NCBI RefSeq assembly: GCF_019649055.1
Contig: NW_026570243.1
Location: 434,001 to 498,000, forward strand
DNA length: 64,000 nt
Reading direction: 5' to 3'
DNA from: Paramacrobiotus metropolitanus
Taxonomy: Eukaryota > Tardigrada > Eutardigrada > Parachela > Macrobiotidae
The translations under genes were made by a program, and so were the position numbers. Below the pieces are notes generated by a model that saw only the letters and a program-made list of their open reading frames with translations, was not told the origin of the DNA and did not search any database. Of this stretch, positions 5,176 through 56,196 are shown piece after piece (the first letter of the stretch is position 1; every line of letters starts with the position of its first letter).

Positions 5176-7266
5176 ATGGTGTTCTTCTTTACGTCAAACA
5201 GTAAGTTCCACGGATTTGTAACTTGCATGCTGAATCTTCAGCTGTCAAACATTTTGTTTACCACATTGCTTGAACTTTTTGGAAAAATTTCAGTTGTAAC
5301 TCCAGCCGTTTCGATGTACATGGGAGTGGACAAGTACGAGAGTACGTGCGGACCATATGTTATAATGCATAGGACAGTTAGGACCTCTGATTCCGCGAAC
5401 ACGTTGCATAATATAATATTTTGTTGTCGTTTTTGTGCTTTCATTGTAATAGGCCTGAATGGCTGAATCTCTTTTGCATTCCTTTATTCTGGACGACTCC
5501 TCCTATGCGTGTTCGTTTTGCAGATGAAGAACTGATTAAGCACTCCTGGCCGGAAGATGTGTGGTTCCATGTGGATAAACTTTCGTCTGCTCATGTTTAT
5601 TTACGTCTGGAACCTGTAAGTTATTATGTATTATGCATCTCGAAAGTGAACACAGAAACGTTTGTTGCATTTTTCCTTAGACGAAAATTAGCCCGTTATT
5701 TAAGAAAGTGTAGACAATGTTTCGTTAAGGTTATGCATTTTCGAAATTGGATAGATGTTACGAAAACCAGTAAATGGGACATGAATATTATGAAACTTGA
5801 AAGTATGTGTTACAGATATGCACCGAACCTCATGTGAATACTTATTTCATCGTTTGTAGGGCCAGACCATTGACGACATTCCCGAAACCGTTGTAACAGA
5901 TTGCTGCCAGCTGGTAAAAGCCAACAGTATTCAAGGTATTTAAACCATTGATAAGTTTATTTATTTTTACAATTTTTACGTATTATTTCATTATTCATTC
6001 ATTCATTAGTATTATTTAGTGTACGAGTATGGGAAATATTACATACATATCTGAATCTGAATTTCATAGTTTTATTTGCTCAATGATGATCCCCCATGAA
6101 TAAATTTATGAAGCAAAATGGATTGGTGTTTCGTTGTATTGCTGTTTTCATTTTGCGGTATTATAACTGTGCATTATTTTATTTGTCATTTCGTCTTAAG
6201 AATCTGTTTGTTTTTCTTGATGCTTGTTTTTGTATCTTCTTGTATACAGTTGCTGGAAAACGTTTTTCATTTCATCTTAAACACGTCTTGTACTCGTGGC
6301 TAGTGAATATTTCACTTTTTCAACATTTTCCCTTTTGGATGGTTCTGCAGCAAGAGCCATGTTTGGCAAGTGAAGTACATCCTGTTTCTAATCACTAATC
6401 CAGTTAAATTGTCAATCTGCTTTTAAGCCTGACGCGTGCCTAGTTTGAAAACATTTAAGCTCAATTGTAACAAGGTTAAGGAAATTATCAGCCAGAGCCT
6501 GTTGAAAAATACTTAAAATTTCATTGCGCTGTTGCACTGTGTTAACCAGGCAATAAGGAGAACAATGTGGGCATTGTATATACGCTGGCGTCTAATCTGA
6601 AGAAAACTGGCGATATGGATACGGGCCAAGTGGGATTTAAGGATCAGAAGGCTGTGCGGCGTGCACGGGTGGAAAAGCGGATTAATGAGATTGTCAATCG
6701 GCTGGAGAAGACGCGCAAAGACATGCCCACGCAGACCTTCATTGAAGCTAAAGAGGAGCGTGATCGCAAGGAGCGGGACGAGCGTAAGAAGGATGCACGT
6801 GAACAGAAGGCCAAGGATGCTGAAGAGGCCAGACGGAAGCAAGAAGAAGCCAGTTTGCGGTATGTTTTTCTAGCGCACAGTTACAATATTCAGATCGCGC
6901 CTTTTTTAATCTATTTCGAATAATTGCTTAATAAGTAATATCGCTTTCGTTTTTTTATTCTGTGTAGCTTCAATGTTTTGATCGAATCTTCTACTTTCTA
7001 TTTCGGTTTTGCCAACAAGAGGATAGTTTTACTCTCCTGATTCTACCTAGCTCTGATTAAGAAATTTGTTGATTTTTTTGAATATTTTCGTTTTTCATTT
7101 TTACTTTGTTTGAATTCGTAATAACTGATGTCACTCAAAACAAGCAAGAAACGTCAGGCTTTGCATCTATCTGAATCATTTGCTTTTTAGATCTTACGAC
7201 ACTATGATGCGGTCGGAAAATATGAAAACCAACCGAGATCGAGGAGATGATGATGATTTTATGTGA
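5176..7266 (+). CDS. CCDC25: Coiled-coil domain-containing protein 25 (NFACT-R/DUF814 family)
   Basis: Six exons, all junctions in phase: 5176-5200, 5294-5341, 5524-5615, 5860-5935, 6550-6859, 7191-7266. They give 208 residues, the same length as vertebrate CCDC25. The N-terminus MVFFFTSN, the segment [20 protein letters not shown], the stretch LVKANSIQG, and [16 protein letters not shown] are diagnostic of the family. The second half is a charged coiled coil rich in Lys, Glu and Arg ([13 protein letters not shown] and following), and the tail GDDDDFM matches the acidic end of other CCDC25 proteins. The NFACT-R fold is shared with the ribosome quality-control factor NEMF. In mammals CCDC25 has been described as a membrane-associated sensor of extracellular-trap DNA; whether that applies here is unknown. 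The start is fixed by the conserved MVFFF beginning. AATAAA follows at 7334. Confidence 0.96.
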
Positions 7267-10300: not shown

Positions 10301-11735
10301 AGTAGCGTGGGTGATAAATTATCTTTTAATGTTGCTTGGGCCGAGGTTAAAAGTTGACGTAAGGCCCCGTTTACACCTCGTAATCGGCGCCCGAGAATCG
10401 TGCATGTGAAAGACTTCAGACGGGCGTGTCGCTTTCAAAACCAGCGATTGCTTTGGGAGAAATTACATAACAAAAAACTGTTGTTTATGAATAAAGTGAA
10501 ATGTAAAAAATTGTTCGATTCAGATGTTGTTAAAACATAATAATAAAAATAAATTAGCTTTACGTATAATTTTCCTTGGTAAATCAGGAAGCGTATAAAG
10601 ATTGTTGCAGATTTACTGTGCGGTTGGATATACACTTGATCCATGCAATACACCAACCCGGTGAAATCGATACGTTAACGCTGTAGACAATTAATTAAAT
10701 ATTAAACTACTTAATTGTTTCATTACTTTTTTATTGGCAAAATTCACTGTGACACCAGCAAATATCCAAGTGTAATTACACAATGTTCCTTGATGTGAGT
10801 CAACGGGGCGGAAACGCTAATTAAGATGTACGGAAATGGCAGTAAGGTCATTGCTGTCAATTATCCGACGTGCCAAATATTTATGTGCCCGCATACGATC
10901 GAAGATACATTTATTACGTTCGTGGTCATCGCCATAAAGCCCCCCTATCTGCCTTGTACCTTTTGGAGACATCACTCACATTCACTTTTCCTACACAACC
11001 AGCTCTTGGCACACATCCTCGACATACATGATTTTTAGGGAAGCGCGCTTCACTTCCGTTCCGATAAAAAGCTTATGGATGCCTGCAGACAGTTAGCTGC
11101 GAAAATTGTGTACAATATATCCACTGATGTGCTACGAGCTATGTACACGGCGGCGTCTACGTAAATGACAGTCTTATCTGGTTAACACCAAGCGCCATCA
11201 TTGGCATAGAACAGTGCACTGTATGTATAGTTGTATACATGTGTGTCTATATGGGATTGTCTGAGGAGCGGAAAAACGAGTCCGCTAACGCTTCAATCCA
11301 CATTTCCTGTCAACTCCTCCTCTTCTGGCGTAGATGTACAGTTTCCTTAGCGTCTTTTCTCTCTGTTGAACAACGTCCAGTGTAGTCAGTGGCAAAGAAA
11401 CAGTGTGTGGCCGTGGTGAGATAGCGACGGGATTTTTATAACCCTAATTCCGATGTTCTTTAGGATACAACGGTTGTCGTCGTCGTCCATTATGTGATCG
11501 GTATATTACAGCGGACTAGTGTGAACTTGGTGTTGTTTTTCCATCGTGCCGGGACATCCAAGAATGGACTGGTAATAGAATTTTCCCCTTTTGGTGGCCG
11601 TTTAGGCGGATTGAATAAATCACACGGGTGTATATGTAATCGATGACCCCGGTGTAATATCTATCTGCCGATTGAATTATCACCAGTTGCAATTGTCGGA
11701 TTATACAAGAACGGGGTAAACCTCCATATCGGCAG
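7340..11735. other. Gene-poor 4.4 kb upstream of the neuropeptide GPCR
   Basis: No exon of a recognisable family was found on either strand. Open frames around 9340-9670 and 10435-11040 show no protein-like composition or splice context. A 57-codon frame at 8050-8223 is listed separately. The right end, about 11300-11735, is pyrimidine-rich and likely contains the promoter and 5' UTR of the GPCR; an in-frame stop at 11673 lies just upstream of its ATG. Confidence 0.5.
8050..8223 (+). CDS. Possible small ORF, 57 codons (weak)
   Basis: ATG in a strong ACCATGG context opens a frame beginning MVKQTATLVQFVCAIASRRS and ending CELN before TGA. The local GC content is higher than the surroundings. 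No signal peptide, family match or splice context supports it, and the opposite strand is also partly open here, so this may be chance. Confidence 0.15.
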
Positions 11736-14700
11736 ATGGAGACCATTATCGCGGAGAAAATGAAAACAACTTGGGATTTTTTTAATTATGACTATGCGAC
11801 TAGTACCGGCTTTCTGAATTTCACGGATTTACTGAATAACTTTTCCTCCACATTACCGTATAATTATTCTATGCTGCCGGTCAATCTCAGTCCGGAGGAT
11901 TTTCAGAAACGGGTAATGGTCTATCTAGAGGATGAACTTCTCGGTCCACAGCGCAGCGCCACACCCGTCCTGATCCCAATGTGTTTTTTCTACGTTCTGA
12001 TCTTTATTACGGGTATCGTGGGGAATAGTGTGACCATCTGGGTGATCAGCCGGAATCCGCGGATGCACACGGGTGGGACCAATTATTATCTGATCAACTT
12101 GGCCATATCGGATTTAATATCGCTTATCCTGGGACTTCCGTTTGAAGTCTACGTAAGTGTTGGTGCAGTGATGTGCTCTGCTGTATCATGATCAGGAAGT
12201 AGATCGTTTAAATATTTGTATGACTTTACTGGTATATGCCGGTGTGTATGTGCAGTATATATTGTCAACTTCTTGTTTTCCCGTGTAGCAACTCTTTGAA
12301 GAGTATCCTTATCCGTTTGCTGAGCAATTTTGCCAGGCACGTGCCTGGGTGTCGGAAGCATCAACCTTATCAAGTGTTTTTACCATTCTGGCATTTACCG
12401 TCGAAAGGTAACCCGGCAGTTTCGTAATATCCGCACACATATGGACGTACCTGGATCAAATGCACTGTACAATTATGGGACGATGTACTTAGGAGAACCC
12501 ATAATTTCAACCTAAAAATATTGTAGTTCTCGTAGGAGAGGAATGAACTTGGTGTGGAGGAGTCGTGACCGTTCACACCAAATAAGATTACAGGTCACCC
12601 AGCTTAACATAATTTATGATTAATCTGTTATGCAAGTTTGATTTAAAACTCGAAGAATAGACAAGGTTATATTTAAAATACTATGACCATTTGTTTGTAA
12701 CATCCAAATTTTACTGAAATGGATTCAGCATAGTTTCTAGTTACTTTCTTGTTGAATCATAAAAATGTAAGAGCAATGTCAAATTTCAACATGTATAGCC
12801 TGACAAGCTGCATGCGGTTCGTTAACGTTATCACATTTCACAACATTTGAACTTCTGAACCTAACATACGTATTAAATCTGACAGATGATTTACACAACC
12901 CTTTTGGCACCGTAACACAAAGCATTCAATCAAAATACAAATGTGTGAAATTCCTAGAAATTTTAGAACTACAAAGCTAATTATTTGACTGGTTAAAATT
13001 ACTTCACACGTATGTGACGTTTCCATTTCAGCATAATGCTCAATCCTTCAGCAACAGTTCAAAACGGGAGTTTTGTTTTTCTAAAAACATTCTGTAAATC
13101 ACGCATTACGAAAGCGCTTTCATAACGTTTTCCTTTTACGGTTTGATGATAGGATTTAAGTATAATCTGACAATGAGCTATTAAAGTGCACATGCGGTAC
13201 CGTACTAACATTATATATAATTATTATAAGGCACATTTGTCAGTAGACTTTGAATATTACGAACCTTGCATGCAAAATTGAGGATTTAGGCAACCAATGC
13301 GTACATCCTCGATTTCAAATTTGCCTTGCAAATTACCGTGTTGATGATTCGCTCATTAGGATTTTTGAACTGTCTCTTTTACTGAGAATACTGTGCCACA
13401 CTGAGAGCATCATTACAACAACGTTCGAAAAGTTTCTTTTTGCTTACGAGTAAGTTTTTATAAACAAATGTACAATAATATTACGCATCTTGGTTTTAGT
13501 AAGTACATTGAGCTAAACAGTAACAATACAAAGCGCAGCACTTTTCGCAACAAGAAAATGCTGTTTTGTTTACGCCCAAATGCGAATTATTGGAATTGCA
13601 TTGGTGTATTGATATGAATTTCGCTGCCCACTAGATACATTGCCATATGCCATCCGTTTAAAAATATTCATTTCCGGACGAAATCATCGCGTGTCATATT
13701 GACGATAATTGTTTCATGGATCTTGGCATTTACCGCAGCAGGACCAATGGGCTTAGAATTCGGTATCATGTTGTTCCCTTATCCGCTCTCCGCGGACTGG
13801 GCCAGTCATCTGGATCCCACCGGCGTGCCCGGTGGTCAGTTGCTCATCCCGGAGTCGGCGGTGTGTACGGCGCGTGCGGAGGGCCCCATGGCCATCCTCA
13901 TACAGTTCAGTACGTTCGCGTTCTTCTTCCTGCCCATGTTCGTCATCATCGCGCTGCATGTGATTATTGCCGTCCATCTGCGCCGGTCGGCCTATTTGAC
14001 GGCACGCGAGAGCGCCGGCCCGGAGGTGTACAGCCAGTACACAGCGGGCAATGGGATGGCGCATGTCAATAGTGGCGGCGGTGGAGGTGGGGGACTGCAG
14101 CCGTCCAGTCAAATGTCACAGGGACGCCAGTCGGTGCTGCGCATGCTCGGTAAGGCAGACTAGTCAATGGAGGCTGCCAATGGCTGCTCTTAGGAATTTT
14201 TTTGAGTAAAGGACATTATCGTTATTATCGTTGTTAACCGGCTAAATTTTGATCCTTATTTTTAAGCAGCATAAAGTAGTGCTTACTGCACGTACGAACG
14301 ACTACAAAAGATGGAGTATTACTTTTCAAAAAACCTTAAAATTTTCTAGCCTTTTTTGTTGTATTAATGTATGGCACTGATGGCAGTGTAGGGGTATATG
14401 GCATTTAGTTGTGTGTTACTTACTATGTGTCTGTGTGTGGCAGTATCACACTGTATTTCATTTTGTAAATGTTTTGTGAATGTTTGTGAATGTTTTGCCA
14501 TTTTATTATAGAAGTGTTCCATCTCTCTCTTTTAGGTATGTAGGCTGTTCATGTTTGTACATTTTATGTAATCCTTTGAGGCTGATTTCTGGTGTACAGG
14601 AAATGCTCCCATTATATACAGCAGGAATGCTACAGATAGAGACAGTTGTACTCATTATTTATTCATGGGCAGTCAGTCAAAAAGTCAAACTCCACGTCAT

Positions 14701-22349: not shown

Positions 22350-25300
22350 TCAGATGTACGTCAGACGTTTTAACTGCTTCAGACGGTCATGTATCTGAAT
22401 GCCTCGCGAAATCTCGTTGGCAGCCGCGCCCCAATTGACCTGTCTACGACCTCCGCGCCCTCCTCCACGACCACCGCGCCCTCCACGTCCTCCGCGTCCA
22501 CCACGATCGCTCATCATTTCATACGGCAACCTAATTAACCAACCAACAAAAGTCAGAACGTAATAAACAATCATGCAGTCAAAGCCGAGTCGAGTTAGTT
22601 TTGTATTTACACTGAACACTACACTGTATTTACACTGTTTTGTATTTGTTTTGTAGTAAAAACAAACAATTTATCAAAATTGAGTTTCATAGTTAATTAA
22701 CATGACACGAGACAACTTACCCACGAACAACTCCTTCCGCCAAAACGCTGCAACGCGCTGCGGCCAAATTGGCATAATACAATGGAGCCGGAATAGAAAC
22801 GCCCATGGTGCACCGTTGGTACACATAACACAGACTCATGGTGAGCTGCTGAATATCATCCGTTGTGAATGCCTCGTCGTCCCGCACCAAAATGTGATAC
22901 CGAATTGGACGGCTGGTGCCCTACGAAAGAAAAAGGTTAACGTAAAGTTGACATGAAGTCCGCTTGAAATAATTTAAATTAAACGGAAATACCATTTTAA
23001 CAAAACATGCAGCCTAACTCAATAACTGTAATCAGGGCATACCAAAGCTCCGCGATGCGACGCCAGATAGAAATCATCATCATAAGGATCCACAACTTCG
23101 CTATCCACAACCAGACCGGCCGGAATATTATCAGGCATGTAACGCAGTTCTCCTCCGGCAAGCGGTTTCGGTTTACGGAAAAATCGGATACGGTGCATCT
23201 TGTTGACAACGACAAAAACGAGTTTCGTAGCGGCGCCCATATTATCCAGTGCCTGGCGGATGCACTTCAGGTCGTTTTTATGCAACTGAAACCAAGAAAA
23301 CAGGGTTCAAGAATCCACACCGACAAAGCTGTTTTCAGGGGCACGCAACAATACTAGTTAACCATCAAAATGCACTCGTTGTATTACCTCATTCTCATGC
23401 GTTCGAGTCACCCCATCGCGATACACCACCATAACTTCCGGATTAGTGCCAGTGTTCTTTCTGTACTGGCTGAGCAGGTTTTCCATCTGCGACGTGATGT
23501 CCGGCAGAACCGCCGTATTCGATTCTGCATAAAACCAAAACGCATTGCCAAATGTTATACTACAGTGAAGTACAGTACTTGTATTACACAATATCCAGTA
23601 CTAATCAGCAGGGAAAATCATTATCACTAATGTGAACAGTTTAATAACTACTGAGTGATGTGAAATTTTAGAGGTTTCAACAACTACTGAAAACGTACCA
23701 ATGACGCTGACATCGGTAGCCCAAGAGCGGAACGAGTCATCGACGCTCGCCACAAATCCCGCGTAAGATGGCTTTGCATCGGCTTCCTTTGTTTTTCCAT
23801 GCGATAGCGAGATCCCGACAATCATGAAAACTCGATCCAATAGACGCAGTGTGCCCAGCGAGCTTTCCGCAAGAACATTATTAGTGCCTGAAAATTACGG
23901 AAGTCAAGATTCAGACGCCGAAAGAAGGAAATAAAAATGCAGAAATTCCGTAAACGGCATGCTGTTCACTAAGCACAACCAAACTACACTACCTCCACAT
24001 TTTACGTTAACCTTGTACATGATGTTCTCCACACAACCACGCGGATTTTTTATGACCGTCTGAGAGAGCAGTCCCTGCAAAAACAATCGTAATAAATGGT
24101 GAAACCATTTGCGATGGTGCTAAACAATTCTGACAACGTTCAGTACCTGGCTCGGAATTCCCATCTCATTGTCCATCACTTTCTTGAAGTCAGAATACTG
24201 TCGGTCCATGCCTTTTTCAAACACCCCGAAAACAAACTGAGGTCTTTTGCTCTGCACAACTCGCGTAATCTCCGGAATAAAGCTGCCGGAATCTTGCAGT
24301 GACACCACATGCATGCCTTCGTTCCATCGCATGCCTCGGCGCTGACCTTCCAATCGCAATTCATTAACAAAGCGCTCGATCTGCGACTTTTGGATGCATT
24401 CTTGTCCATTACGATTCGGAAAGACCATAATCACAAAATTGGGCACTGCAAAGATAAGCATTTTACTACCCACGATTTCACGAAGAGATGCAATAGAACG
24501 AGTTTCAATCTTTCAGATACCACATTAACAAAATATGTCTAAAATACTGCAACACTGCAAATATTTTTATGAACAGAAAACCTGGTAGTTCTATGCGTAA
24601 CTGTCAAAAGCTGTACAAAAATAATTCAGATCTACAACGCCGATGTGCAAAAAAATAATTTGTCACCAGGCATTTGCGAACGAAAATGCTTAAATTAAAA
24701 GCTGAAACTTACTGTCAGATGTCTGGTTGTATCGGATCGCACGTGGCATATTCCAAGTCCCATTGCCAGGCTGTACACAGCCTCCGTCGGTGGACCCATG
24801 GGTATCGTACTGGATTATGGGCTGTGGGAGAATCCGCGCCCCGATCTCGATAAAATCTTCAGCTATTTCAATTCCCGTCGTTCGCATCACCGCGTGATCG
24901 CGAACCCGGCAAAGATGCAAGAAATCCTTGATAGTGCTGATGCGCTTGTCCGGTGTCTTTCCAACAATTCGAATGAATCCGGCCTACAGGAAAAGCGCAA
25001 CAGATGACAGGTAAGTTAAAGACGTACAACAAATTGGAGACAACAATACTTTCAAGAGCGCTGATATTTCAGATCAAAACTCGTTAACGGCGGCTACAAT
25101 TAATATTACATGAAAATTTACGAACTGCTATCTCACCTGTTCCTGCTTTGTCAGCGCCTTCTGGTAGCGCTGTCCAGCCACCAGATAACACAGCTCCGGC
25201 GCAACCCAGTACAAGGTCTGTCCCAGGCGAACTTCAACAGCCGGCAGATTGGGGTGATTCAGTTTCTTGTTACGGTTGGCGTACATCTGCTGCAAAGAAT

Positions 25301-26774
25301 GCTGCTGTGGATTCTGATCTCTTGGAACGAAGTGGGAACATGGGGACATGGCGAACTTCGTGATGACGCCTCCCTCATAATCTCGGCCATCCGACGCCTG
25401 AAACTCCACCTGACGGCCACCAAACACCTGCGACAGTCCCTTTAAATCGCGGTCGTGAATTCTTTCCACGTGTAGAGGGGCACGCAAAGAGTTGGTAAGA
25501 CTGTTGGACAAGAAGTCTTCCTTAAAGAACACTGAGTGGGTCTGGTCCGCAGTTAGGATCAATCCGGTACGCGAAAGACGCATGGCCGCAGTAAACCCAG
25601 GCCTAGAAGCCAGAATAACACCAATTTTCACAATGATCAGGAAAATACTGAACGAACAAATACTAACATCCTTTTCATATAAATTTACTAATTCAAATAA
25701 CCCAAATCCAAACTGAGGCCGTGCTTCTAGAGTAGTTTTCTGTTACAAAATGATACAAAGCGTACGAATTTTTTTCCATACGAAAATACAGATACGACTT
25801 TCACTTACCAAATAGCACGCCACTTCTCTTGATCGCCAGGAAAAACGTCGACGTTAACGTTGGCGTACACTTTGTCACCCATGGCTACAACCGTGTGGTT
25901 TGGATTTTCAATGGCGGCTTGATGCGTGTCGGAGATGGCCTCGCGCAGCAACAGATTCAGTGCCTGCAGACGCTCGATAACGCTTCGCACCGCTTTCTTG
26001 TCCTCTGGGTTGACTGGCTGAAGGAAATCGGCTTCGGTGACCGTCAGGTACTTCGTGTACGTCAGGACGACTTGAAACGGCATTCCATTGGCCTGTCCAT
26101 TGTTCTGCACTGGGCCCTCCAGCGTAACGTCGATGGTCTCCTTGTGACGAAAAGGCCAGGAGAGATCCACGTTGACCAGAACAAAGGTTTTCTCATCGTC
26201 GTACGCGAAGACGGGAAGTTGCGAAAAGCCAAGGCGCTCACTCAGCATGGGAAGAACAAGGCGGATGATGCGCCGATTCTGATCCTTCCGGATACGGCCT
26301 TCTTCGCCTTGTTGATTCGGCGAAGTAATCTTGACGTCGAAAAATCGGAGGGCAGCTTTACTAGCTGTAAAGACAAGAAGAAACCGAATCATAATAAAAA
26401 CACAATACCTGCACAAACAGGTCTCACTAATCACTGATACTAACAAACCCGGAACTGATGATATCATCATTTCACTGTACGCCCTATCTCAAATTTATAC
26501 GTAAACAGCGACTTCACCAAATCCGTCACGTTAATTCGAACACGGAAATAAGTTAGCTCAGTTTTTGACCTTATCGGAAACAGTAGAAATCAAAGCAACA
26601 AGTGTTTTACAATTTTCACAACGTTTCATTTATAATTTTGCATGAAATTTAACGAAATCAGCAGTACTTACGTCCGCGGACTTTAAAAGGAGTTCGTGAT
26701 GACGGCTTCTGGGATGCCGTTCGTTCCTGGATCTCCTCTGGGGCAAAACGACGGCATCCACTGATCGAGGCCAT
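22350..26774 (-). CDS. Argonaute-family protein with degenerate slicer site and C-terminal RGG box
   Basis: Small-RNA-guided effector. Eleven exons, read downward: 26774-26672, 26364-25809, 25602-25137, 24983-24713, 24445-24147, 24074-23993, 23887-23699, 23524-23388, 23285-23043, 22920-22721, 22530-22350. All phases agree; 908 residues, normal Argonaute size. Domain order is N (FKVRG...LRFFDVKI), PAZ ([14 protein letters not shown]...[10 protein letters not shown]), MID and PIWI. The MID pocket keeps Tyr and Lys in QYSDFKKV, Gln in GIPSQ and Lys in [10 protein letters not shown], the four guide 5'-phosphate contacts. In PIWI the usual GADVTH reads GISLSH, and the Glu-finger position is Ala; YRDGV Asp and the RYHIL His remain. 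After [13 protein letters not shown] comes an inserted Arg-Gly repeat tract, then [17 protein letters not shown], equivalent to the usual C-terminus. The start is the first in-frame ATG (26774). The frame stays open upstream, so a longer N-terminus is possible. Confidence 0.95.
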
Positions 26775-29643: not shown

Positions 29644-31322
29644 TCACCTCGCCCAGCGATAATGCGCGTATGCTTTATTTGCCTCGCACTGCTTATGGAG
29701 ATCGTGCTTCCTCTTCACAACTTTTCCCTGAAACAAAACCTTGAACTAAATTTCCGCTCTACGGTTTTGGTAAATTAAATAGCGCAATATAAAGCTTCGT
29801 GCAGAACCTTACCTGATTGTGAAAGGCACTGGAAATTTCCCTCGCAAGAGCAATCTCTGATCTTTCGAATTTCGGATTATCCCTTGATGCCAAAATTAGC
29901 CACTTCATTGCAGTCCATTCTGATTTTTCATCTCTTACCGCTGCCGGAACCTTCATAAAATTGTCAGTGAGATCAATCACATCAGCGACTCATTACCGGA
30001 GCTTACATAATCCAAGAGAAAGATTCAAATATTAACTGATACGGCAATGTTGACAGCGTTTAATAAAATCGCCAATAAATGCTTATGGAAAACTGCATCG
30101 GAAAAGTTGTTCGATACGAAGATTTATTTCACAAGAAGACATTTATTTTACGAAGATTTATTATTCAGATTTATTTCAGAGCACACTAAAATTTTCACAA
30201 TATCAGCCATCAGGAGAAGAAATGCCAACACTATGAAGTATCAATTGGGTAAAAAGTACTAGGACTGTACCAAAACACTAAACAGGTGCAATATGTTAAT
30301 TCGCTCCGATTAATATATTATTATATGCCGAAAAATATTAATTCGGAAAAACAAATTAAGCGTGCATAACTGTTAAATTCACCTGATACACAATTCCACC
30401 GCGTCTAATACCGGTGAGGCATAAAACGGGTTTGCAGTTGTTGATGGCAGTTAGCAACATTCTGGTCGGATTCAGCTCGATTTTTTCCTTCTGTGCTTCA
30501 TCAGCGTTACGGTACTTTTCCAGCTGCTCGCGCTTCATAATCTCGTACGTTCTCCGCATTATTTCGTCAGCTAATTCACGCTTCCCTCTCACCATCACCA
30601 TTTTAAAAAATTTGCTGAAAATCAAAACAGACAAAATGCGTTGAAAAGATATTATTGGGACATCAAATAAAAACACTCATCACTTACTCAGGTATTCGTA
30701 CTCTTAAAGTAATTAATCATAAACTACAACGGGTTATTACGGAAGTACTGCACATGCAAACAGAAATCAACTTTCTTCATATTTCAGTAAGTTCACTGCA
30801 GGGCGTTCTGCTTAAATTAGACATTTCAGATATCAAACACATATGCCAAAACTTCCGAATTTCAAATAAGGTTTCATCACCAAAATTTTAATGGCATCTG
30901 AATCTGATGTGTAATAAAGAAATTATTTTTGTATAAACAATAAACTGATCAACTTGGCAAAGTTAACGAAACGCAGAATGCCTGCGCAACGTAATGGGCA
31001 CTCACTCTTCAATAGGATTATAAAAGATGGATGAATTCTGATTTATCAGAGCAGGAGCGATCTCTTTAAACTGCACTTCAGGTTCCGCTTCTATCCTTTC
31101 GCGTGCCAGATCCTGATCGAACACCGGCGGAACCAATCGACGAAACCAATAAACCTGTTTGGGAGTCTTGGTTCGCATCCGACTCAAACATCGCACAGGC
31201 CTAGGGACAATCCGCATATAAAATTGCTGCTACCAAATCCTGAATCAGACGGATCAAATTTTTACTCACGTGATAACAGGGAATACTGCGCGTGAAAATT
31301 TATTCAGAAGTGGCGAAAACAT
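29644..31322 (-). CDS. MRPS7: Mitochondrial small ribosomal subunit protein uS7m
   Basis: Structural protein of the mitochondrial 28S subunit head. Five exons, read downward: 31322-31270, 31200-31006, 30614-30383, 29950-29813, 29727-29644; 233 residues, close to the vertebrate length. The first exon, [18 protein letters not shown], is a typical mitochondrial presequence (Arg/Lys, Ser, hydrophobic, no acids). The core shows [18 protein letters not shown], the loop [17 protein letters not shown], then [20 protein letters not shown]. The end reads [20 protein letters not shown] followed by AHYRW, which is characteristic of the S7 family. The start is chosen because it supplies the targeting peptide and joins in phase; a downstream ATG at 31217 would be inside an intron. 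It is convergent with HLCS, whose 3' UTR abuts the stop codon. Confidence 0.94.
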
Positions 31323-37969: not shown

Positions 37970-40900
37970 CTACGAAATGGCACAAGAATCACGCTTGCCC
38001 AAACCGATGACGCTTCCCCGACGGGAACTGGACGCACTGCCCATTCGCGATGGTGTTGCCGAAACCTGACTGCTGTACTCTTGATCGTTCTCCGGACTGC
38101 TATTCCGGGCGGGAATACCCGCGAAAACGTTGGGCATGGATTCCCGCCGTTTCTTTATTGCCGGGCTCAGGGCGTATCGAACATTGGCTTGCACCAAAAG
38201 TTCTATCAAATTCAAATTGTTTTATGCAGAGAAATTGATATATACAATGTACATAGTGCATACCTAACAAAAAAATGCTATAATTTAAAAAGTAAATTAA
38301 AATAAGTGCAGCTTTTCATAGAAATGGCATAAAGCTTTATGAATACTCTCGCGGAATCGTCGCGGCTAATGTAGGCCATACAGTTCCACTTTAAGTATCA
38401 ATAAGCAGTACAATATAGAGCATTTAAATCAAGAAAAAAGTACTGTATTGGAAAAAAGTTAATTAAGATCACACTGGCACTTACAGACCTGTACTGTAAA
38501 ATAAAACTAAGCGAAACATTTTTAGACTTGAACAAGAAGGGCTCACTCTAATAATGCAGTATACAAATCATACGATACTAATGATTCGCCGATTAGAATC
38601 AGATTTTTGTATTTGGTCCTACTATTCGACAGGAGGACATATAGATATTTTTCCATAAACACAAAACCAAAATTTAACATCATATTGTGATGCGTATGGA
38701 GTGTTGATTTAATTCTACGCTACGCAGCGCATCGTAATCTTAGGCTTTGTCAATAATTTTACTTCGAAGTAAATATATTCTTGAAGAAATTTTATGACCT
38801 TTGTATCCCGTTAATTTACCTCAACATGCCACGAATGTCATTATGTCACATGCATAAATAACATGTACTGCGTGCATATAATCAATTCTGACATATTATT
38901 AAATGCCCAACCTTTAAATATCTCCACTATTCCCACACTGGTCTTTGCTGACGCTTCCACATATCCACATGAATCCCAGTCACACTTAACCTGTAATGAC
39001 ATTTGGAAAATGTGGCATCCCATCGTTCAATACTTGGTCAACGAGGTTGTATGAAGCTTATTCAGGTTTCATTGTCAGGCGATCTCAGTGCTCAGTATAC
39101 GCAGCGCCGATGTCAGATATCCTGTCAACAATGGCGCTGCCCAAGTTCAACAACCAAATTTACCGGTTAATGCTCCAACCGGAAGTATTTAAACCCGAGG
39201 CTCCCGTATACAATACTTGTCCCTAATTGCAATCTTCGCAGAAATACGTCTTAGATTTTGGAATGGCGCTTAATGTAAGCCTAAAGTTCCCAGCAAAGGG
39301 CAGGAGATCGTGCTATGCGCGTGTTATTATCTGCCGACGCAGATAATAACGTATTTTTCATATTTAGCGATTAATAACACTTATGCACAGATCAGTGTAC
39401 AGATAATGCCTTCCAAGGGTATGATACATACAACAGAATTTCAATATTATAATTTCCTAGAGGCTGATGTTATTGTGGCACATGTGCAACTTATGCTCAT
39501 CTTCTACATGTAATTGATTGTTTATTCCGTACGCTAATGCTACCACATAGATTGCTTTTTAACTTTGTATTGCATAAAATTGCACTGATCATTAAGCAGT
39601 CATTCAGTGACCCCACCGTTCCGGAAGCTTAACCCTGCCTTCTTGAAAAGCTCACGACTTTGGCAAGAAATTAGCTTCTTGGGATCAATTATTGATAGGA
39701 AAGAGGAAAACGTCTTTAGACATGTCTAATGATGAAAAATCCATAAGGATGCCGTTCATTACCGATCACCGGATATTCACCAGTGGCTGATATGCGGCAT
39801 TGACAGCGCTGTTACGCATATGCGACTATGACATGTAAAGGGGATTTCGAGGTTGCCCAGAAAGAATTTAAGATCATCAAGAGAGTTCTTTGAGGAATTA
39901 TAAACCCAGATTTCGATGGATAAGAGGATACTAAAGAGCTGCAACTAGGTAAAGCGCAACTTCGTTTTCTCGGATGAGATGCACAAGTGCTTAAAAAAGT
40001 TGCCGGGTTGAATAACAATTTAATCAGTTACAGCTTAAGATTTGCGCTTCTTCTTTAAATATTCATGTAGTGTATTCTGTATATGCAACGATTTGCTAGG
40101 CACTGCTTGCATACAGTATCTTGTGCCGAAAATAATTCGTTTTCTAGATGACCTCTTGCGCCAGAATAATCATAATATCAAAGTAGCAGAGATTTGCGAA
40201 ATTTTATTACTAGCATATTATTACCGGCAAGATTAGCTTTCCAAAACCTAAAAAACACAAATATTTCTTTTACTACTCAGTGTCTGTGCAGCCGAATTCG
40301 CATTGCAAATAGGAACTGCTACCGGAAATGGACTATTAGTCCAGATTTTATCAGAGTATAACCGTTTCCGCACTGCTTATTTGCTGTCTTCAACCCGCCA
40401 AATACAGGAAATCATGCTGTACAAGAATTTAAGGGACGTAATTTCATTCTATTAATGTTTTTGTATTTCTGCCACCAATGTGCTTTTATGGGTGCTCAAA
40501 AAGGCAGCGGCCTATTACAACCAAATTATTTTCACGTGATATGTGTTTTTGTTCAATCTTGCTTCAGTAATTTATAGTACTTGATCATGAACACCCGTTT
40601 ATTTAATTTTACAAAATTATTGATTTGCTGGAATAGTTCTTATCGTATTGAATTGTGTATCCTCCCACATAATTTAGTAGTTTCTGCGTGCAGGTTAAAT
40701 GGCACGGACATGCCCTGTAATTACCAAGCATTCCACGTAGGTCCGATCCACTTTCCACTTATTGTCTTCCAGTTCGGCTTTGTTGGCCACGACGACCATG
40801 GGAATTTTCAAAGGTTCAGACTGTTGTGCAGCACGACGTTGCTCGTTCTTGACACGAATAATTTCCTCCCGTATTTCTTTTAACTCTTCTAATGAGCCCT

Positions 40901-43622
40901 CATTATCGACGCTGAACACGAGAATAAATGCGTCACTCTTCTTGATGGCCAGCTCGCGCATTGCCGGAAATTCCGAATATCCGGAAGTATCCAGAATCTC
41001 CAAAGTCAGGTTCTGGCCGGAGATCTCGTATTCGGCACGGTGCAGTTCATCCACTGTCTTTTTGTATCGATTGGGGAATCTGTACGGGAGAATAAGCGAC
41101 AAATTAAAATTCCCTAATGAAGCATGAGTAACGTTGCTGATGGGTATAGGGCAGCCACGGATGCGCAAGACCGCGCCTTTGTCATACAGTCTGTCATGCA
41201 TACCTTTCATATAAAAACTGCGTGATGATGGCACTTTTTCCGGTGCTTCCTGGAAAATGCAGATGATGTAAGCGGCGGTAATCAGTGATGCTTAAATTAA
41301 GCGAACAAAACATCTTTTCCCATATAACCTTCGATTGTGTAATTTAAAGTGCCGTTTAAAATCGTAGTATGTATTTCAGTAAAGGTACATTAGTAAAATT
41401 ATGGCGTTTGCATATGGATATATAATATACGTACCTACTACTACAGAGTACAATTATAGTAAGATGTACTCCGTTAAAGCTAGCACAAAATTTTGAGAAA
41501 AGTTTTCTGCCGGAAGGTAAAATAATAACGCTACATAGAAAATCTGAACGCGTACAAAAGTTTTTATTTTCGGAACACTAATTTATATGTACAAGCAGTT
41601 ACTATATATGAATTTACCATATCATATTACGTAAACTTATTTAATTCAGTAGCAAATGAAAGAAGTTACATATCATGAATACAACTGAACGCGACACTAT
41701 GACCAGCGGAAGTTTATTGAAATTTAACTGCCTTGCGTGTCTCTTTGTGGGAAGCTGTTATGCTGGACCATCATTTGCCATGTAATTGAAAAATACCGTG
41801 TAACATATTGCTTAACATTACGCGTATAAAGAGCACAAGTAACGAATTAATCTTACGGCTTCCGCGTCCACAGACGGCAATAATTCGATTTCACTGTTGT
41901 CACATACATCATATTAAGATAATGGTGTATTATGGCCTCTGTTCTTGCCGGCTAAGTGATCTTTGCCATCTTCCTGGCCACAGAGTGTCCGCTTCACATA
42001 TTGCGCAACTGATGAGGAAATATCTATACAGCTGATTCTGTATGGCTGCTGAATGAATAACCATGATCATGCCGATCACATCCTGACTTATGATCTGAAG
42101 CGGCTGGATACTTATATAAACGAAAAAACGTTTGCTCAATTGTACTTGAAATTTGCACGATTGTGTTGCTACAACAGATTAACGCGAGCTCCAGAATCTG
42201 ATAGGAAAAGAAAAGTTTGTGGTTAACGGTTGGTGTTCTTCATAGATATTTGTGCAGAACGAATTACTACAGCCAACTAAACTATGCAAATTTTGCACGA
42301 TTTTACACTTGCAACGTGATTCAAACATGCGTGCATGTATTTAAAATTAAAATCATACAAGAAATGACGATGTCACAGTGTACGGCAAACTTGACGGTCA
42401 GCATAAAATTCGTAATTATTTGTTTGTGTTACCTCTAGCTTTATATGCATTAGAAATCCAGTTTTATATTTTACGGATACAGTGCCGATAAAGTGAAAGT
42501 GTAGCTGATATAATCTAGCCAAAATACAGGGCAAACGCACATGCAAGCGTTACATAAAAAATTTAACACGTTTATTGGCGGTGAAGTGGATATCAATTAT
42601 TATCGATTGCGATAGTTTACTCATACTGGCAGCTGGCTTTTCAAGCCGATAGATGGTTAACTGTTAACATATTAATAAGTATGCCGACTCGTAAATACGC
42701 AAAATATTTTGATATCCGCCTTGTGATCTATAGTCTGCGATGACCTATGCGCACCGTTTTATTTCGATATGATAGTCTTACAGGTGACTGAGGTGAGCAA
42801 AAATTTGAATGAGTACTCGTACCGTACTTGTATCAAGTGTTTGCACATATCATATGCAGTATCATTTTTGTCATGTAGTAGCATTATCAAAAAGGCACAA
42901 GTTTGTAATATTAATCAAGCATCAAACAAACTCTGCAGCATATATACTGCTCAAATATATAATTGCAAATTAAGCGTAAAAAACCTAACGGAGATTATTG
43001 ATTTAAAGAAGGAGGTATGATCGCTTTGTCACGCGGTCCGCCAAACCCAGCGTATATAGTATACGCTTGCGATATGACTGTACAGATAATCAAACATCGT
43101 GGGCGTATTACAGTGAGAGAGAGCATCGAGATCGAAGTTACCAATATATGCCGATGAACCAGTCATCCTCACAATTACAATACAAGATGCCAGGTGCAGC
43201 AGTGGTTTAACACAGTAACTAAAAATACCCTTATCCCGACACACTTCCCTACGAGAGAACTGCACCGGCAAACTTCCGCTCAACAACTTTTAGCGCAAAA
43301 GAATCCTGTAGCGATAACAACGCGGTAAAACCTTACCTGCACCCAACACCGTTACCCGGCGATGTTGCTCCTTAGGGATTTGAATTTCGGGGACACACGT
43401 CGTGGAGGCCTTCCGTTGAACCCGGCCTTTTGCCGAACGGAAACTACTGTGGTTACACGGCTGCATAATACTGCTGCGGCGTACTAATTGCTGAAGGGCC
43501 ATCTTGGGACCATTGGCCGTTGGCTCGCTAATGGGAAATAATTCCGGACCCATTTGGGGATAATCCGCGATGCGGCTGGATGAGGCACTACGGTTGGTGT
43601 GGCGTGAAGAGTACAACAACAT
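37970..43622 (-). CDS. Ras-like small GTPase (Rhes/Ras-dva type) with N-terminal extension and CaaX box
   Basis: Membrane-anchored GTPase. Exons, read downward: 43622-43337, 41249-41204, 41079-40725, 38990-38912, 38202-37970; all in phase, 332 residues. The N-terminal ~85 residues are an extension rich in Ser, Arg and Pro. The P-loop GAGSTGKS is split by the first intron. Switch I is KKTVDELH with the effector Thr. G3 is DTSG followed by YSEFPAMRE, as in Rhes and Ras-dva proteins, so the Ras Gln61 equivalent is absent. G4 reads NKAE instead of NKxD, and G5 is ASAK. The C-terminal region is basic and Ser-rich (KKRRESMPN, SSSRRGSV) and ends CAIS, a CaaX motif predicted to be farnesylated because the last residue is Ser. 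Introns of 2.1 kb and 1.7 kb contain nothing recognisable. The exact subfamily is uncertain. Confidence 0.92.
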
Positions 43623-47603: not shown

Positions 47604-49520
47604 TCATTCGTATTCGAACTCCAAGCCTTGTAATTTGTCCTTGAGCCTATTCTGCTCGCTTTCGATCCACTCATCAACGCGCTTATTTAATTCCGGTGGC
47701 AGTTCCGTTTTCCAGTTTCCTACTTTTCCTACACGTACAGCAGATATAAGTTTTCACTATGTAAGTACGTTTTTTTACTACAAGCTACACAACTATATAT
47801 TAATAGTACTCTGTAGGATCAATTGTAAGGTTCATATTTACCGGCTCTCATAAAATGGGAGATATTAAAATCCCAGTAGCCAGCGGCGGCAATGGCTTCC
47901 CGATTGGTTAATTTGTTCTTTTTCATAGCATCAAAGTTACAGTGGAAAAGGATGGTGTCTAGTTGCTCATCAGTGAATTCCTTGCCGAGAAAGCGCGCTA
48001 GTCTTTGCGTCTCACCTTTAAAATCCTAAAACATTTGATCAAAAATACAAATGCGTAAGAACTAATAACTACCATAATACATTATTTCCTTTACAAGCAA
48101 AATTTCCAAAATTAGCCTAAGAAAGTTAACTGAACAGCCACTGAATATTTACCTTTAACAGTCGTTCGAATGTGGTGAAAAAGATATTGCTGTGATTTTT
48201 ATGTTTTGACCAAAAGTCAGCCACGTGATCCCAAAATGGTGCATAAATGCAGCGGTTATTAACAAACGACTCGAAGGTCTCCTCGATTGTCCCCTTGAAT
48301 GCGGCTGACGGCGTTGCCCGCATAAAATGGTGCATAGACACAATGGTATCTTTCGGATTTCGAGCAACATAAATAATCTAAGAATCAGTGCAAAAATAAC
48401 ATTTGTTAATAGAATGTTAACAATCACACTTTCTTCCCATTTGCGTTAACCTTTTTGAATTATATATGTTTTTCTTTGTTTGGTAATTATTGTACCATCC
48501 TAAATTTCAGACACCTTGGCTTTTTCGATGACGCTTTTCGGCAGCGCATCCCAGCCGAAATGCGTGTAAAAGTGCCGTGGCGGCTTCATGGCCAGCATCC
48601 GGTCAATGGGGCGCGCCCCGACCGGCATATTAGGTGTGCACATTTCCATGTACGGAAAATAAGTTTCCAAATTGGGGCCTTCGGTCATGCATTTGGGACT
48701 GGCGTCATTGTTGATCATATGCAGGATGGCTGTCATGAATGTTGTGCCTGAAGGTTGGATGCATATGGAAGTATTAGATTATAATCTTTCCTTACATTCC
48801 GATATGTTCCGCATAAATCCATAACTATTCAACTATGTTGGTGCTGGTTATGCCGACCTATGCATGTCCATCGGATAAACCGTTCTGCGTTTTCAACGAA
48901 GACAGAGATAACATTCCTCTGATGTTTAAGTAAAACTACGTTTGCGTCATCTACCATTACATTTTCTGATAATTTCTAGTTTTATGCATGTGAAAATTGA
49001 TTATGCATATGTTTTTGCTTGTACTTATTTAGTCAGATAGGTACACGTACATGAGACATCGAAAATAAATACTAGTAATTAAACACGCCCATAGCAGGCA
49101 TCATGGTGCATGTAACGTAATGTGTAGACTTCCAGTCGAATACAAAATAAGTTTGCAGATTTACCGCATTTTGGGAAAGTTACGATTGCCACATCCGATG
49201 GATCCGCTTCAAATTTCTCGATGCTGGGTATGGTGAGATAAAATGGGTAAAAGACCCTTGTTCCATGATAATTTTGTCTAAACAAGCACCAAGAAAGCGA
49301 TAACAAAATCCACAATGGAATATTATCTGCTGACGATATAAATAATTAGCTAAGCTGCACTGCTCCGAAAGCCATACAGAGAGCCGGTATTAAATTAAAC
49401 AACAGGAGCGACTTACAAAAAATCCTTGTCGTGGAATTTGTACTTATACGCTTCCGGTCCTTCGACCTTCTTCGGGACAACTGTGGCATTCTGCTTCGGA
49501 TTGTCGTCAGGCGATGCCAT
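47604..49520 (-). CDS. Cytosolic sulfotransferase (SULT family)
   Basis: Transfers sulfate from PAPS to small hydroxyl or amine acceptors. Exons, read downward: 49520-49417, 49277-49165, 48747-48515, 48377-48153, 48025-47842, 47728-47604; in phase, 327 residues, slightly longer than typical SULTs because of an N-terminal extension beginning MASPDDNPKQ. The PAPS 5'-phosphosulfate loop reads TFPKCGTTF (normally TYPKSGTTW). The catalytic His lies in FYTHFGWD, where the usual Lys-Thr-His has Tyr in place of Lys. The 3'-phosphate site YVARNPKDTIVS is intact, and the C-terminal signature is MRAGKVGNWKTEL. There is no signal peptide or TM segment, which argues for the cytosolic type. Substrate cannot be predicted. 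Confidence 0.94.
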
Positions 49521-52719: not shown

Positions 52720-53026
52720 ACAAGAGCCAGACATTCACGAGCATTTGCTCGGTTATTTCAAAGTCAAGAGCTATTAGCAGCCAGTGCAGCTGCCCAGTGA
52801 GGGGAGAGCATCATCAGTTTTTCTTTAGCTAACACCCTCAAATAAACTCGCCGCGATGCTCGGATGGTCAGTTGGCTCCTAAGACCTTTTTAGTGCAAAC
52901 TCCCTGCGCTGAGTCGTCAGTCAGTTGCATCGACTTGTCTGCTTTTTTATCAATTAATTTTCAATAAATGGTTAAGGATTAAGTTGCCACCATCTGCGGT
53001 CACTGTCTCTCTTCCCCCGAGAAACA

Positions 53027-56000
53027 ATGCGGCTTCTCGGCCATATTTTTGCCCTCATCTTCCTTTCGTGCGTCTGCGCGGAGACTGCTCAAGAGCCGGC
53101 GGCGGCCGCATCCTCCTCCAGCGTCGCCAAACGCGAATTCCAGCCCACAATTGCCGATGCATCAAAACGGAAAGAAGTGTCGGCCCGGCTGACCGCCGCG
53201 ACGGGCAGCGCACTGACCAGTCGGCAAGCGTCACCCGCGAGCGGTAGTGTACCGCTCAGTATCACCGTTACAACCGCCGCCCAGGGAACAGCGGATCCCG
53301 CTCGACAGAATGTGGTGGTAGGGACACCGGTGGCCGGCACCACCGTCACCGGGACAAACGTCATCCAGGGTGTTCCCATTACCGGCTCAAGTTACGGACA
53401 GTCCTCTAGCTATTTGGCGCCCAGCTATGCCATGCCGTATGGTGGCGGATATGGAGGATATGGCGGAGGCGGATATGGAGGCGGCGGATACGGAGGAGGC
53501 GGTTATGGCGGCGGTGGTTATGGAGGTGGCGGTTACGGTGGAGGTGGATACGGCGGTGGCGGGTATGGCGGTGGCGGATATGGTGGCGGCGGTTACGGAG
53601 GAGGATATGGATATCCAAGTAAGTTAAACAAGCCATAAAAATGAATGCATAAAAATTGTGATATTGATCAAAAAATCCAGATTTATCTTATTTTAATTTC
53701 GTCTTCATTAGTTTTTTTGCCCGTTTAGCCGTGCTTTCCACTTTACATCCGCAAAAATGTATAATGTATGTATAGGTAGTACTTATATTGTGCATGAACA
53801 AAAATGTGGATTTGTGGAATCAATACCCAAACGCGGTAACCTTCTTGAAAGCGTTCGAAATCGACATTTGACGCCACTGACCGTTGTCCATACAGTGATC
53901 GTGCGATCTCCGCAAGATTCAGTTCTCATCACTTTTAAACAACTGGTACTTCTATTTAGTTTTTCGGAAAATTATTGACGAACACATTATCCTCAACCTT
54001 ATTTGCTCTACTTCTATTTCTCGAAAAAGTCTATGCTTAGTATACTTACGAGCCAACAACTTCAATACACATGCACCTTTAAGCCATCCTTTTTGTTTGG
54101 CTCCTTGAAATAGGGCTTTCCGAGAAAGCAGAGTTGTTGGTTTTTTTTGGAAAGGTTTCAAGTGGCATGTAAAATATTCTTCTGAAACCGAAGGGCGCAA
54201 TCTTTTTCAGCAGTTGTTAATCCCTTTTTGAAAACTGAGAATTATGTACTCATATCTCTGTCAGTAAAAATTTCAAGGAATTATAATTCATTTGTGGCAA
54301 TAGGAATGTGTTGCTATGAGAATACCAGGCTTTGCTTAAGATATCACAGATTTATAACCAAATGTGGAATGTTCACAAGCCACGAATGTTAATTTGTAAT
54401 AACCTTATTTTGCTAATTTCCAATATTATATGCGGCTATCATTTATGTACAAAGGATTTTATAATGATAATTATACCCACAATTGCCTTTACGGGGATGC
54501 ATGCCTCCGTTAGATTCTGTCGCAGTCCAAATATAAATCATGGCATGAGCACAGGTCACAGACTCACAGTGCAAGGAAATCAAAAATGAAGGTTACCGCC
54601 GTATCACCAATGTAAAATCAGTTATAACTGTCGGCACTTAGGAGCCACTTGTCCGTAATAAGCACTTGTGCTCCCTGGCAGAAAGCCGGGGAGCCGCGCG
54701 GCAGAATCTCTGTGACATCAGCTTTAGATGCGCATTGCTCGATTATGTGACCTGCTTAGCCTTTAGCAATTTAACCAGGCTCCTTAAGGTTCAAGTTTGC
54801 TTGACCACTGCATAAACTGTCAAAACGCCCAGTATTGATTAGCATCAAGTGGTGTGCCGGGTCTTTAACAAAACTGTTGTCTCTGTGTCATTATAAACAG
54901 TGCCTCCTATTCTCTATCCACCACCACCACCAATTCCCATTCCGGTACCGGTGCCCGGTCCGCCCATTCCCGTGCCGGGACCACCGATCCCGATTCCCGC
55001 ACCTATCCCGGTGCCGGCCTATGATTACGGTTACGGTGGCGGTTATGGAGGGTATGGCGGAGGTGGTAACAATTATGGGGGTGGTTACGGCAACAACAAC
55101 TATGGCGGCGGCGGATCATACGGCGGCAACAACTACCGAGACAACAGTTATGGCGGAAACAGCTACGGCGGAAACAGCTATGGCGGCGGTTACAGCAACA
55201 ATAATAACTATGGTAGCAGCGGTTATGGTAGCAATAACAACAATTACGGCAGCAACAGTTACGGAGGTGGCGGCTATAATGATTATGGAAACAAAGGTTA
55301 TGGCGGCAGTAACTACGGCAGCGGTGGCTATGGAGGGAAGGGCAGTTCTAGCTATGGCTATTCCAGCGGAGGCTATGGTAAGTTTCTGCATGCACAGCAA
55401 AACATTGACCAAAACCGGTAGGTGGGAACCCAATAAAACCTTAATTATCTTATTAATTTTACATCTTTTTGTTAAATACAATCTGTGGAAAATTGTTTAA
55501 ATTAATTTTCCGAAACCTATTATTGCCCCCCTTGTTTTTTTATTGAAAACCGTAAAGGGTCCCATCTATCACGTTTTTGGTTAATGTTTAGGTGCGGGCC
55601 CATATATGCCGGATTATTTATTTAATTCTGATAACACAAATGCTTGCTACAACTGTAATAATAACGGGAACCAAGCTGTTGCCTCTGGTCGACAGAACAA
55701 TATTAATTACGGCAATCAGTTGTCGTCATCCGGCAATAATAACGCGGGCTACATCAATCAATATGCGACAAATTCTTTTAAAGCCTCCTCTGCAGGATCC
55801 AGCTACGGTGGCAATAATTATGGATCGGGTGGAAAGTATGGAAATTCCGGTGGATACGGACGTTCGAGCTACGGCAACAACAACAACAATAATTATAATA
55901 ACAATAATAACTATGATTCTTATTCCTCAAATCTGTCGGGATCCTACAGCAGTCATTATCCAACCGGAACCAGCTCCAGCTCATATTATGATCCCTACAC

Positions 56001-56196
56001 CGGCGGCAGTACATACAGTGGACCGACACCCTATGGACGCAGTGCCAAAACTGCCGATAATACCGGGAGTAAATATGATATTAGTGCGTCGGGATTAAGT
56101 GCACAGATTGCTAGTCAGCTGGAGGGTGCTGGACACCCTGGTCTGCTAGGAAGCAATGCTAATGAAAAGGTCATGTTGTACACTAGTAGAAGATGA
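53027..56196 (+). CDS. Secreted Gly/Tyr/Asn/Pro-rich repeat protein (cuticle- or silk-like)
   Basis: Extracellular structural protein by composition. Three exons, each splitting a codon after its first base: 53027-53618, 54901-55377, 55592-56196; 557 residues. Residues 1-18 (MRLLGHIFALIFLSCVCA) are a signal peptide. Exon 1 continues with an Ala/Ser/Thr-rich segment and ends in at least ten GGYGG-type repeats. Exon 2 opens with a proline tract (PPPPP, then PIPVPGPP-type repeats) and changes to NYGG/SYGG repeats. Exon 3 is Asn/Tyr/Ser-rich, includes the only later cysteines (CYNC), and ends in a non-repetitive tail (ASGLSAQIASQLEGAGHPGL). Such Gly-Tyr repeats occur in cuticular, eggshell, adhesive and silk proteins. 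Which one applies here is unknown. The symmetrical intron phases would allow exon-by-exon repeat expansion. AATAAA follows at 56317. Confidence 0.9.
53441..53612 (+). repeat. Coding minisatellite, GGN-TAY-GGN units
   Basis: Tandem 15-base-like units encoding GGGGY repeats in exon 1 of the Gly-rich gene. Units differ mostly at third codon positions, so the repeat is conserved more strongly at protein than DNA level. Confidence 0.85.

Follow-up and report, generated by a model that had tools for sequence, protein, structure and literature searches.

The locus described here raises the question of what an Argonaute could still do in the cell once most of its slicer site has been replaced. The gene lies on the minus strand (26774..22350) of a 64,000-nucleotide stretch of DNA (contig NW_026570243.1, positions 434,001 to 498,000), which as a whole is referred to below as the window, and it consists of 11 exons joined in a single open frame of 2727 bases, ending in a stop and encoding 908 amino acids (aa). 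An earlier note on the same DNA had centred on the interval 23388-23887, which corresponds to exons 7 and 8 of this gene, and described an Argonaute with two of four slicer residues lost and the guide-binding pocket intact. In our study, the product is an AGO-clade Argonaute by score comparison with AGO and PIWI chains, and we consider it likely to be a divergent member of that clade which loads guides, cannot cut, and silences or captures its targets via bound proteins.

In regard to cutting, the published catalytic tetrad of human AGO2 (hAGO2) comprises D597, E637, D669 and H807 (PMC13049099). The corresponding residues were mapped in two ways, by MAFFT alignment and by HMMER pairing, with the hAGO2 numbering verified on the chain rows of the Protein Data Bank (PDB). 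Both gave the same tetrad for the window protein, S619, A660, D692 and N833 (S-A-D-N), which departs from DEDH/D. The residues concerned are the following, that of RYHIL being placed by MAFFT and the others by both procedures:

23808..23810, minus strand: S619 in GISLSH, codon TCG, hAGO2 D597 column, lost
23511..23513, minus strand: A660 in TAVLPD, codon GCG, hAGO2 glutamate finger E637 column, lost
23415..23417, minus strand: D692 in YRDGV, hAGO2 D669 column, kept
22768..22770, minus strand: N833 in YYANLAAAR, codon AAT, hAGO2 H807 column, lost
22894..22896, minus strand: H791 in RYHIL, paired with hAGO2 H766, not the catalytic His

The serine, the alanine and the retained second Asp had been placed in the earlier note correctly to the codon. 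The histidine of RYHIL, taken there for the catalytic one, had been assigned to the wrong motif; H807 of hAGO2 sits in YYAHLVAFR, with YYANLAAAR as its counterpart, so the count of two residues lost is rejected and only one of the four is kept. Within the block SIPAPxYYAxL, this column holds H in AGO2, R in human AGO1, D in KpAGO and N in the window protein. The alignment of the E637 column is fixed by an Asp located four positions further along, common to the window protein and the human AGOs. No D or E was found within seven positions of S619, the nearest in the span examined being E627. A control animal-type AGO included in the same MAFFT run (L001, described below) keeps D, E, D and H. The S619 change does not represent a single sequencing error, because TCG matches neither Asp codon at any of its three bases; the A660 codon is one base from a Glu codon, and that of N833 one base from a His or Asp codon. 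With a single tetrad residue left, the protein is very unlikely to slice by the known two-metal mechanism. Loss of slicing is well known among Argonautes.

Guide contacts were scored on the hAGO2 list printed in PMC4504477, with R179 and S180 left out, the alignment starting at 196. All six residues of the 5′-phosphate anchor are kept, Y529, K533, Q545, K566, K570 and R812 of hAGO2 corresponding to Y549, K553, Q565, K586, K590 and R838. Their positions, given by both MAFFT and HMMER, and that of the adjoining specificity loop are:

24183..24197, minus strand: Y549 and K553 (hAGO2 Y529 and K533), anchor, kept
24147..24149, minus strand: Q565 (hAGO2 Q545), anchor, kept
24000..24014, minus strand: K586 and K590 (hAGO2 K566 and K570), anchor, kept
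22753..22755, minus strand: R838 (hAGO2 R812), anchor residue of the PIWI domain, kept
24198..24218, minus strand: EKGMDRQ, aa 542-548, replacing the hAGO2 5′-nucleotide specificity loop LPGKTPV, with K525 and T526 changed

Ahead of Y529, a 13-residue gap appears within MID in two MAFFT runs and no gap in the HMMER pairing, while the anchor columns agree. The four MID residues for the 5′ phosphate regarded as conserved in the earlier note (Y549, K553, Q565 and K590) are indeed so, together with K586 and R838, but its intact pocket holds for this anchor only. Elsewhere, PAZ contacts are kept in 0/6 cases, although the pairing is weak there and one or two could match with gaps moved, and MID contacts in 6/12, five of those listed being anchor residues. 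Linker contacts are kept in 1/3, catalytic residues on the contact list in 1/3, and non-catalytic PIWI contacts in 5/8, R812, which is also an anchor residue, included. Based on these contacts kept and lost, the guide 5′ end is probably held by the window protein, and the 5′-nucleotide preference and the 3′-end grip are probably changed. A one-sided Fisher test of the anchor (6/6) versus the catalytic residues (1/4) gave P 0.033, which is suggestive only, because the residue grouping was chosen after the residues had been seen. The proposal of a loader that cannot cut is well supported, and more firmly than in the earlier note, because the catalytic His is lost too.

The placement in the AGO clade follows from the PDB search, in which 43 distinct sequences matched at E 0.001 or better. 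Chains of human AGO3, AGO2 and AGO1 scored highest (215.6-222.2 bits), followed by Arabidopsis AGO10 (198.6 bits) and human AGO4 (198.2 bits). PIWI-clade chains reached 100.4 bits at best, QDE-2 91.1, KpAGO 88-90 and the archaeal HrAgo1 45.4 bits, and a PIWI-clade identity was ruled out by these scores. In addition, TVTPTH, given as a PIWI-clade motif in a flatworm motif list (PMC8191739), is replaced by TSRPIR in the window protein. The references full enough to be compared were human AGO1-3 and the control gene. The latter was the single relative obtained from 113 pattern matches in genome contigs, 81 pattern matches in viral contigs having yielded none. It is an AGO-like gene split into several open stretches (2654-4315 of contig JAKSDK010001527.1), filed under a Phycisphaerales metagenome-assembled genome, of which it looks like a eukaryotic contamination. 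MID-PIWI identity to hAGO2 amounts to 34% (103/301) for the window protein and 65% (201/309) for the control, identity of the window protein to human AGO1-3 being about 34-35%. Among the 186 columns invariant in these four references, the window protein keeps 85. We infer from this divergence that the gene is a fast-evolving paralogue and not the standard microRNA AGO of its host. No title or opening abstract among the literature matches listed describes the protein, which is not evidence of its absence from print.

The tryptophan pockets that receive GW182 were inspected on 22 hAGO2 positions taken to lie on or near these pockets. The window protein keeps 5/22, one position being unaligned; among 11 positions chosen from this list it keeps two (L650 and R688) and the control eight. 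Mutants of P590, K660 and R688 have been published (PMC11336974), and of these sites the window protein keeps R688 alone (1/3), while the control keeps P590 and K660 (2/3). Three fully conserved tryptophan pockets are described as a feature of metazoan AGOs only (PMC12477606). Because of this conservation and the few positions kept, the usual GW182 contact is likely lost.

A further peculiarity is found at the C-terminus:

22449..22505, minus strand: six RGG motifs, aa 858-876, last exon and C-terminal tail, placement inferred by distance from R838

Placement by alignment does not extend here, the alignment ending at hAGO2 813. The part of the protein that begins at R838 numbers 70 residues, compared to 47 in hAGO2, the surplus approximating the RGG stretch, which would accordingly fall roughly at the position of hAGO2 PIWI loop 2. 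In its hAGO2 counterpart, E821, D823 and E826 are acidic residues of the PIWI loop (PMC4504477). The RGG units are encoded by differing synonymous codons. A search with the tail only paired the RGG run with a low-complexity run elsewhere in KpAGO, which was taken as an effect of composition. By title or opening abstract, no PIWI-loop case was present among the listed literature matches on RGG in Argonautes; this is not evidence of absence.

In the mechanism we propose, a small RNA would be loaded by its 5′ phosphate, as the kept anchor suggests, and targets would be found through base pairing. Target cleavage would not follow, since the glutamate finger, the first Asp and the fourth position of the tetrad are all replaced; the target would instead be silenced or captured through bound proteins. 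GW182 is improbable as such a partner through the usual tryptophan pockets, because these look degraded, and a candidate surface for docking or for holding RNA is the basic RGG tail. Silencing through partners, already suggested in the earlier note, is a reasonable reading. More unusual is that a dead slicer, altered contacts for GW182 and in PAZ, and a tail with RGG motifs occur together in one protein.

Compared to known systems, the window protein resembles human AGO1-3 in its clade, as its best PDB matches, and in sharing the same 5′-phosphate anchor, and human AGO1 also in being without the fourth tetrad residue. Unlike human AGO1-3, it is devoid of the D597 and E637 equivalents, of the PAZ contacts and of most of the pocket positions compared, and it has the RGG tail. 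C. elegans CSR-1 differs from it in keeping the slicer residues. C. elegans CSR-1A is similar in having RG motifs, reported as dimethylated (PMC8270938), but these reside in an N-terminal exon and those of the window protein in the C-terminal tail. Incomplete tetrads are reported for the nematode AsWAGO-1, AsWAGO-2 and AsNRDE-3, and kept ones for AsCSR-1 and AsWAGO-3 (PMC8837657); the likeness to the worm WAGO class, drawn in the earlier note, is only an analogy, the compared set holding no WAGO sequence. Tick Ago-16 and Ago-30, linked to small RNAs dependent on RNA-dependent RNA polymerase (RdRP), are non-nematode AGOs far from the microRNA AGOs, a similarity by description (PMC10062562). They differ in that they are reported to keep the catalytic residues.

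Several observations weigh against the proposed mechanism. Slicing is reported for fly Piwi, whose site is given as DDK and by that notation keeps both Asp residues (PMC8191739), the acidic residue nearest before A660 (E656) is four residues away, and sequence by itself leaves some room for slicing. With its PAZ and MID seed contacts changed, the protein may bind guides more weakly or in an unusual way. The R812 anchor position is not universal, because the control has His there. The pocket comparison depends on a list backed in print for three positions and narrowed from 22 to 11, and the control itself is without R688.

Among the alternatives, it is possible, though not likely, that the window protein carries secondary small RNAs made by RdRP in the manner of a WAGO, being either a genuine WAGO, should the host be a nematode, or a parallel invention. 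This would be a special case of the guide-loading, non-cutting Argonaute proposed above. Its divergence, at 34% identity to hAGO2 where the control has 65%, and its changed specificity loop are consistent with such a role, as is the incomplete tetrad, which is common in WAGOs though not universal. The AGO-clade score is no argument against it, because in a published tree the only WAGO representative lies on the AGO-clade branch (PMC12477606). On the other hand, in comparison with hAGO2, a holder of 5′ monophosphates, the anchor residues are the same, and reports of WAGOs are confined to nematodes (PMC11114477). The neighbouring P2X gene is of a kind described as absent from C. elegans and fly and present in a tardigrade, although transcripts are reported from the nematode Xiphinema as well as from a tick (PMC2633282). 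RdRP was matched in 0/10 neighbouring stretches scanned, which cover part of the window, and none of the features observed in the window bears on the use of secondary small RNAs.

A narrower version, rather unlikely as it stands, would be an independent WAGO-like silencer outside nematodes, slicer-dead and uncoupled from GW182, with a relaxed 3′-end pocket and a basic RGG lid in PIWI loop 2 that takes the place of the acidic loop and docks silencing partners. Were a cut-free, partner-dependent Argonaute to be confirmed in an animal other than a nematode, more than one origin of such a branch among animals would be suggested, and the protein would represent a natural test of the parts (slicer, GW182 pockets, PAZ grip and PIWI loop 2) that a silencing Argonaute can lose.

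Another special case of the proposed non-cutting loader is a decoy holding guides or targets away from slicing Argonautes, for which rice AGO18, reported to sequester a microRNA (PMC4358150), is a precedent. A kept guide anchor together with changed cutting residues and GW182 pockets would suit such a function, but the changed PAZ contacts speak against a tight hold on a standard guide, and we regard a decoy as quite unlikely.

Decay of the gene towards a pseudogene has to be weighed against its structure, which is as follows:

22350..26774, minus strand: Argonaute coding span, 11 exons, 908 aa, exact start codon inferred
26774-26672, 26364-25809, 25602-25137 and 24983-24713, minus strand: exons 1-4, high to low
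24445-24147, 24074-23993, 23887-23699 and 23524-23388, minus strand: exons 5-8, high to low
23285-23043, 22920-22721 and 22530-22350, minus strand: exons 9-11, high to low
22750..24224, minus strand: PIWI domain (Pfam PF02171), aa 540-839, over several exons, 230.8 bits, E 3e-68
25137..25352, minus strand: weak PAZ domain (PF02170), aa 304-375, 28.4 bits, just below the gathering score of 28.8

The start was set at the first in-frame ATG of the translated stretch 26864-26672, and a further upstream exon is possible. In the N-PAZ-MID-PIWI layout, PIWI is strong, while the matches to PAZ and to L2 (ArgoL2, 23.3 bits, cut-off 33.3) are weak and below cut-off, and the 908-aa product gave no Pfam match to the N-domain. 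When the N-terminal 375 aa were compared with PDB, AGO2 was matched weakly, with a best E of 0.0064 and from aa 217 on, and in 24/24 of the sequences matched the best stretch began at aa 217 or later. This divergent N-terminal half could be taken as a sign of decay. However, 908 codons remain open across 11 exons, the introns have GT-AG ends in 10/10 cases, the anchor is fully kept against 85/186 of the columns invariant in four other AGOs, and the RGG codons differ synonymously, which makes decay very improbable.

That the protein still cuts RNA with substitute residues, an idea to which the active DDK Piwi, the nearby E656 and the single base separating the N833 codon from His or Asp could lend something, is the most improbable of all, because the loss of the first Asp, with no acidic residue within seven positions and E627 the nearest, leaves no obvious two-metal ligand at S619.

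Besides the Argonaute gene, ten chosen stretches of the window were scanned against Pfam, and a family match at E 0.01 or better was obtained in 7/10. Scans of the window with Rfam, at gathering scores, and for tRNAs gave no matches. Judging by the P2X, rhodopsin-type receptor, Ras and sulfotransferase exons near the gene, the host is taken to be an animal, possibly a tardigrade or some other invertebrate and conceivably an early-branching nematode. The neighbouring features observed are:

1398-1577: P2X receptor exon (PF00864, 50.6 bits), with further P2X-like exons around it by eye
6546-6851: weak NFACT-R exon match (23.3 bits, cut-off 29.8), CCDC25-like by eye
11676-14163, plus strand: rhodopsin-type G protein-coupled receptor, two stretches (PF00001)
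30437-30601, minus strand: weak match to ribosomal protein S7 (17.8 bits, cut-off 24)
40731-41054, minus strand: Ras-like GTPase exon (PF00071)
48512-48730, minus strand: sulfotransferase exon (PF00685)
52976-56196: glycine-rich open frames with GYGGG or Gly/Asn/Tyr repeats, the first without a Pfam match and with a signal-like start by eye
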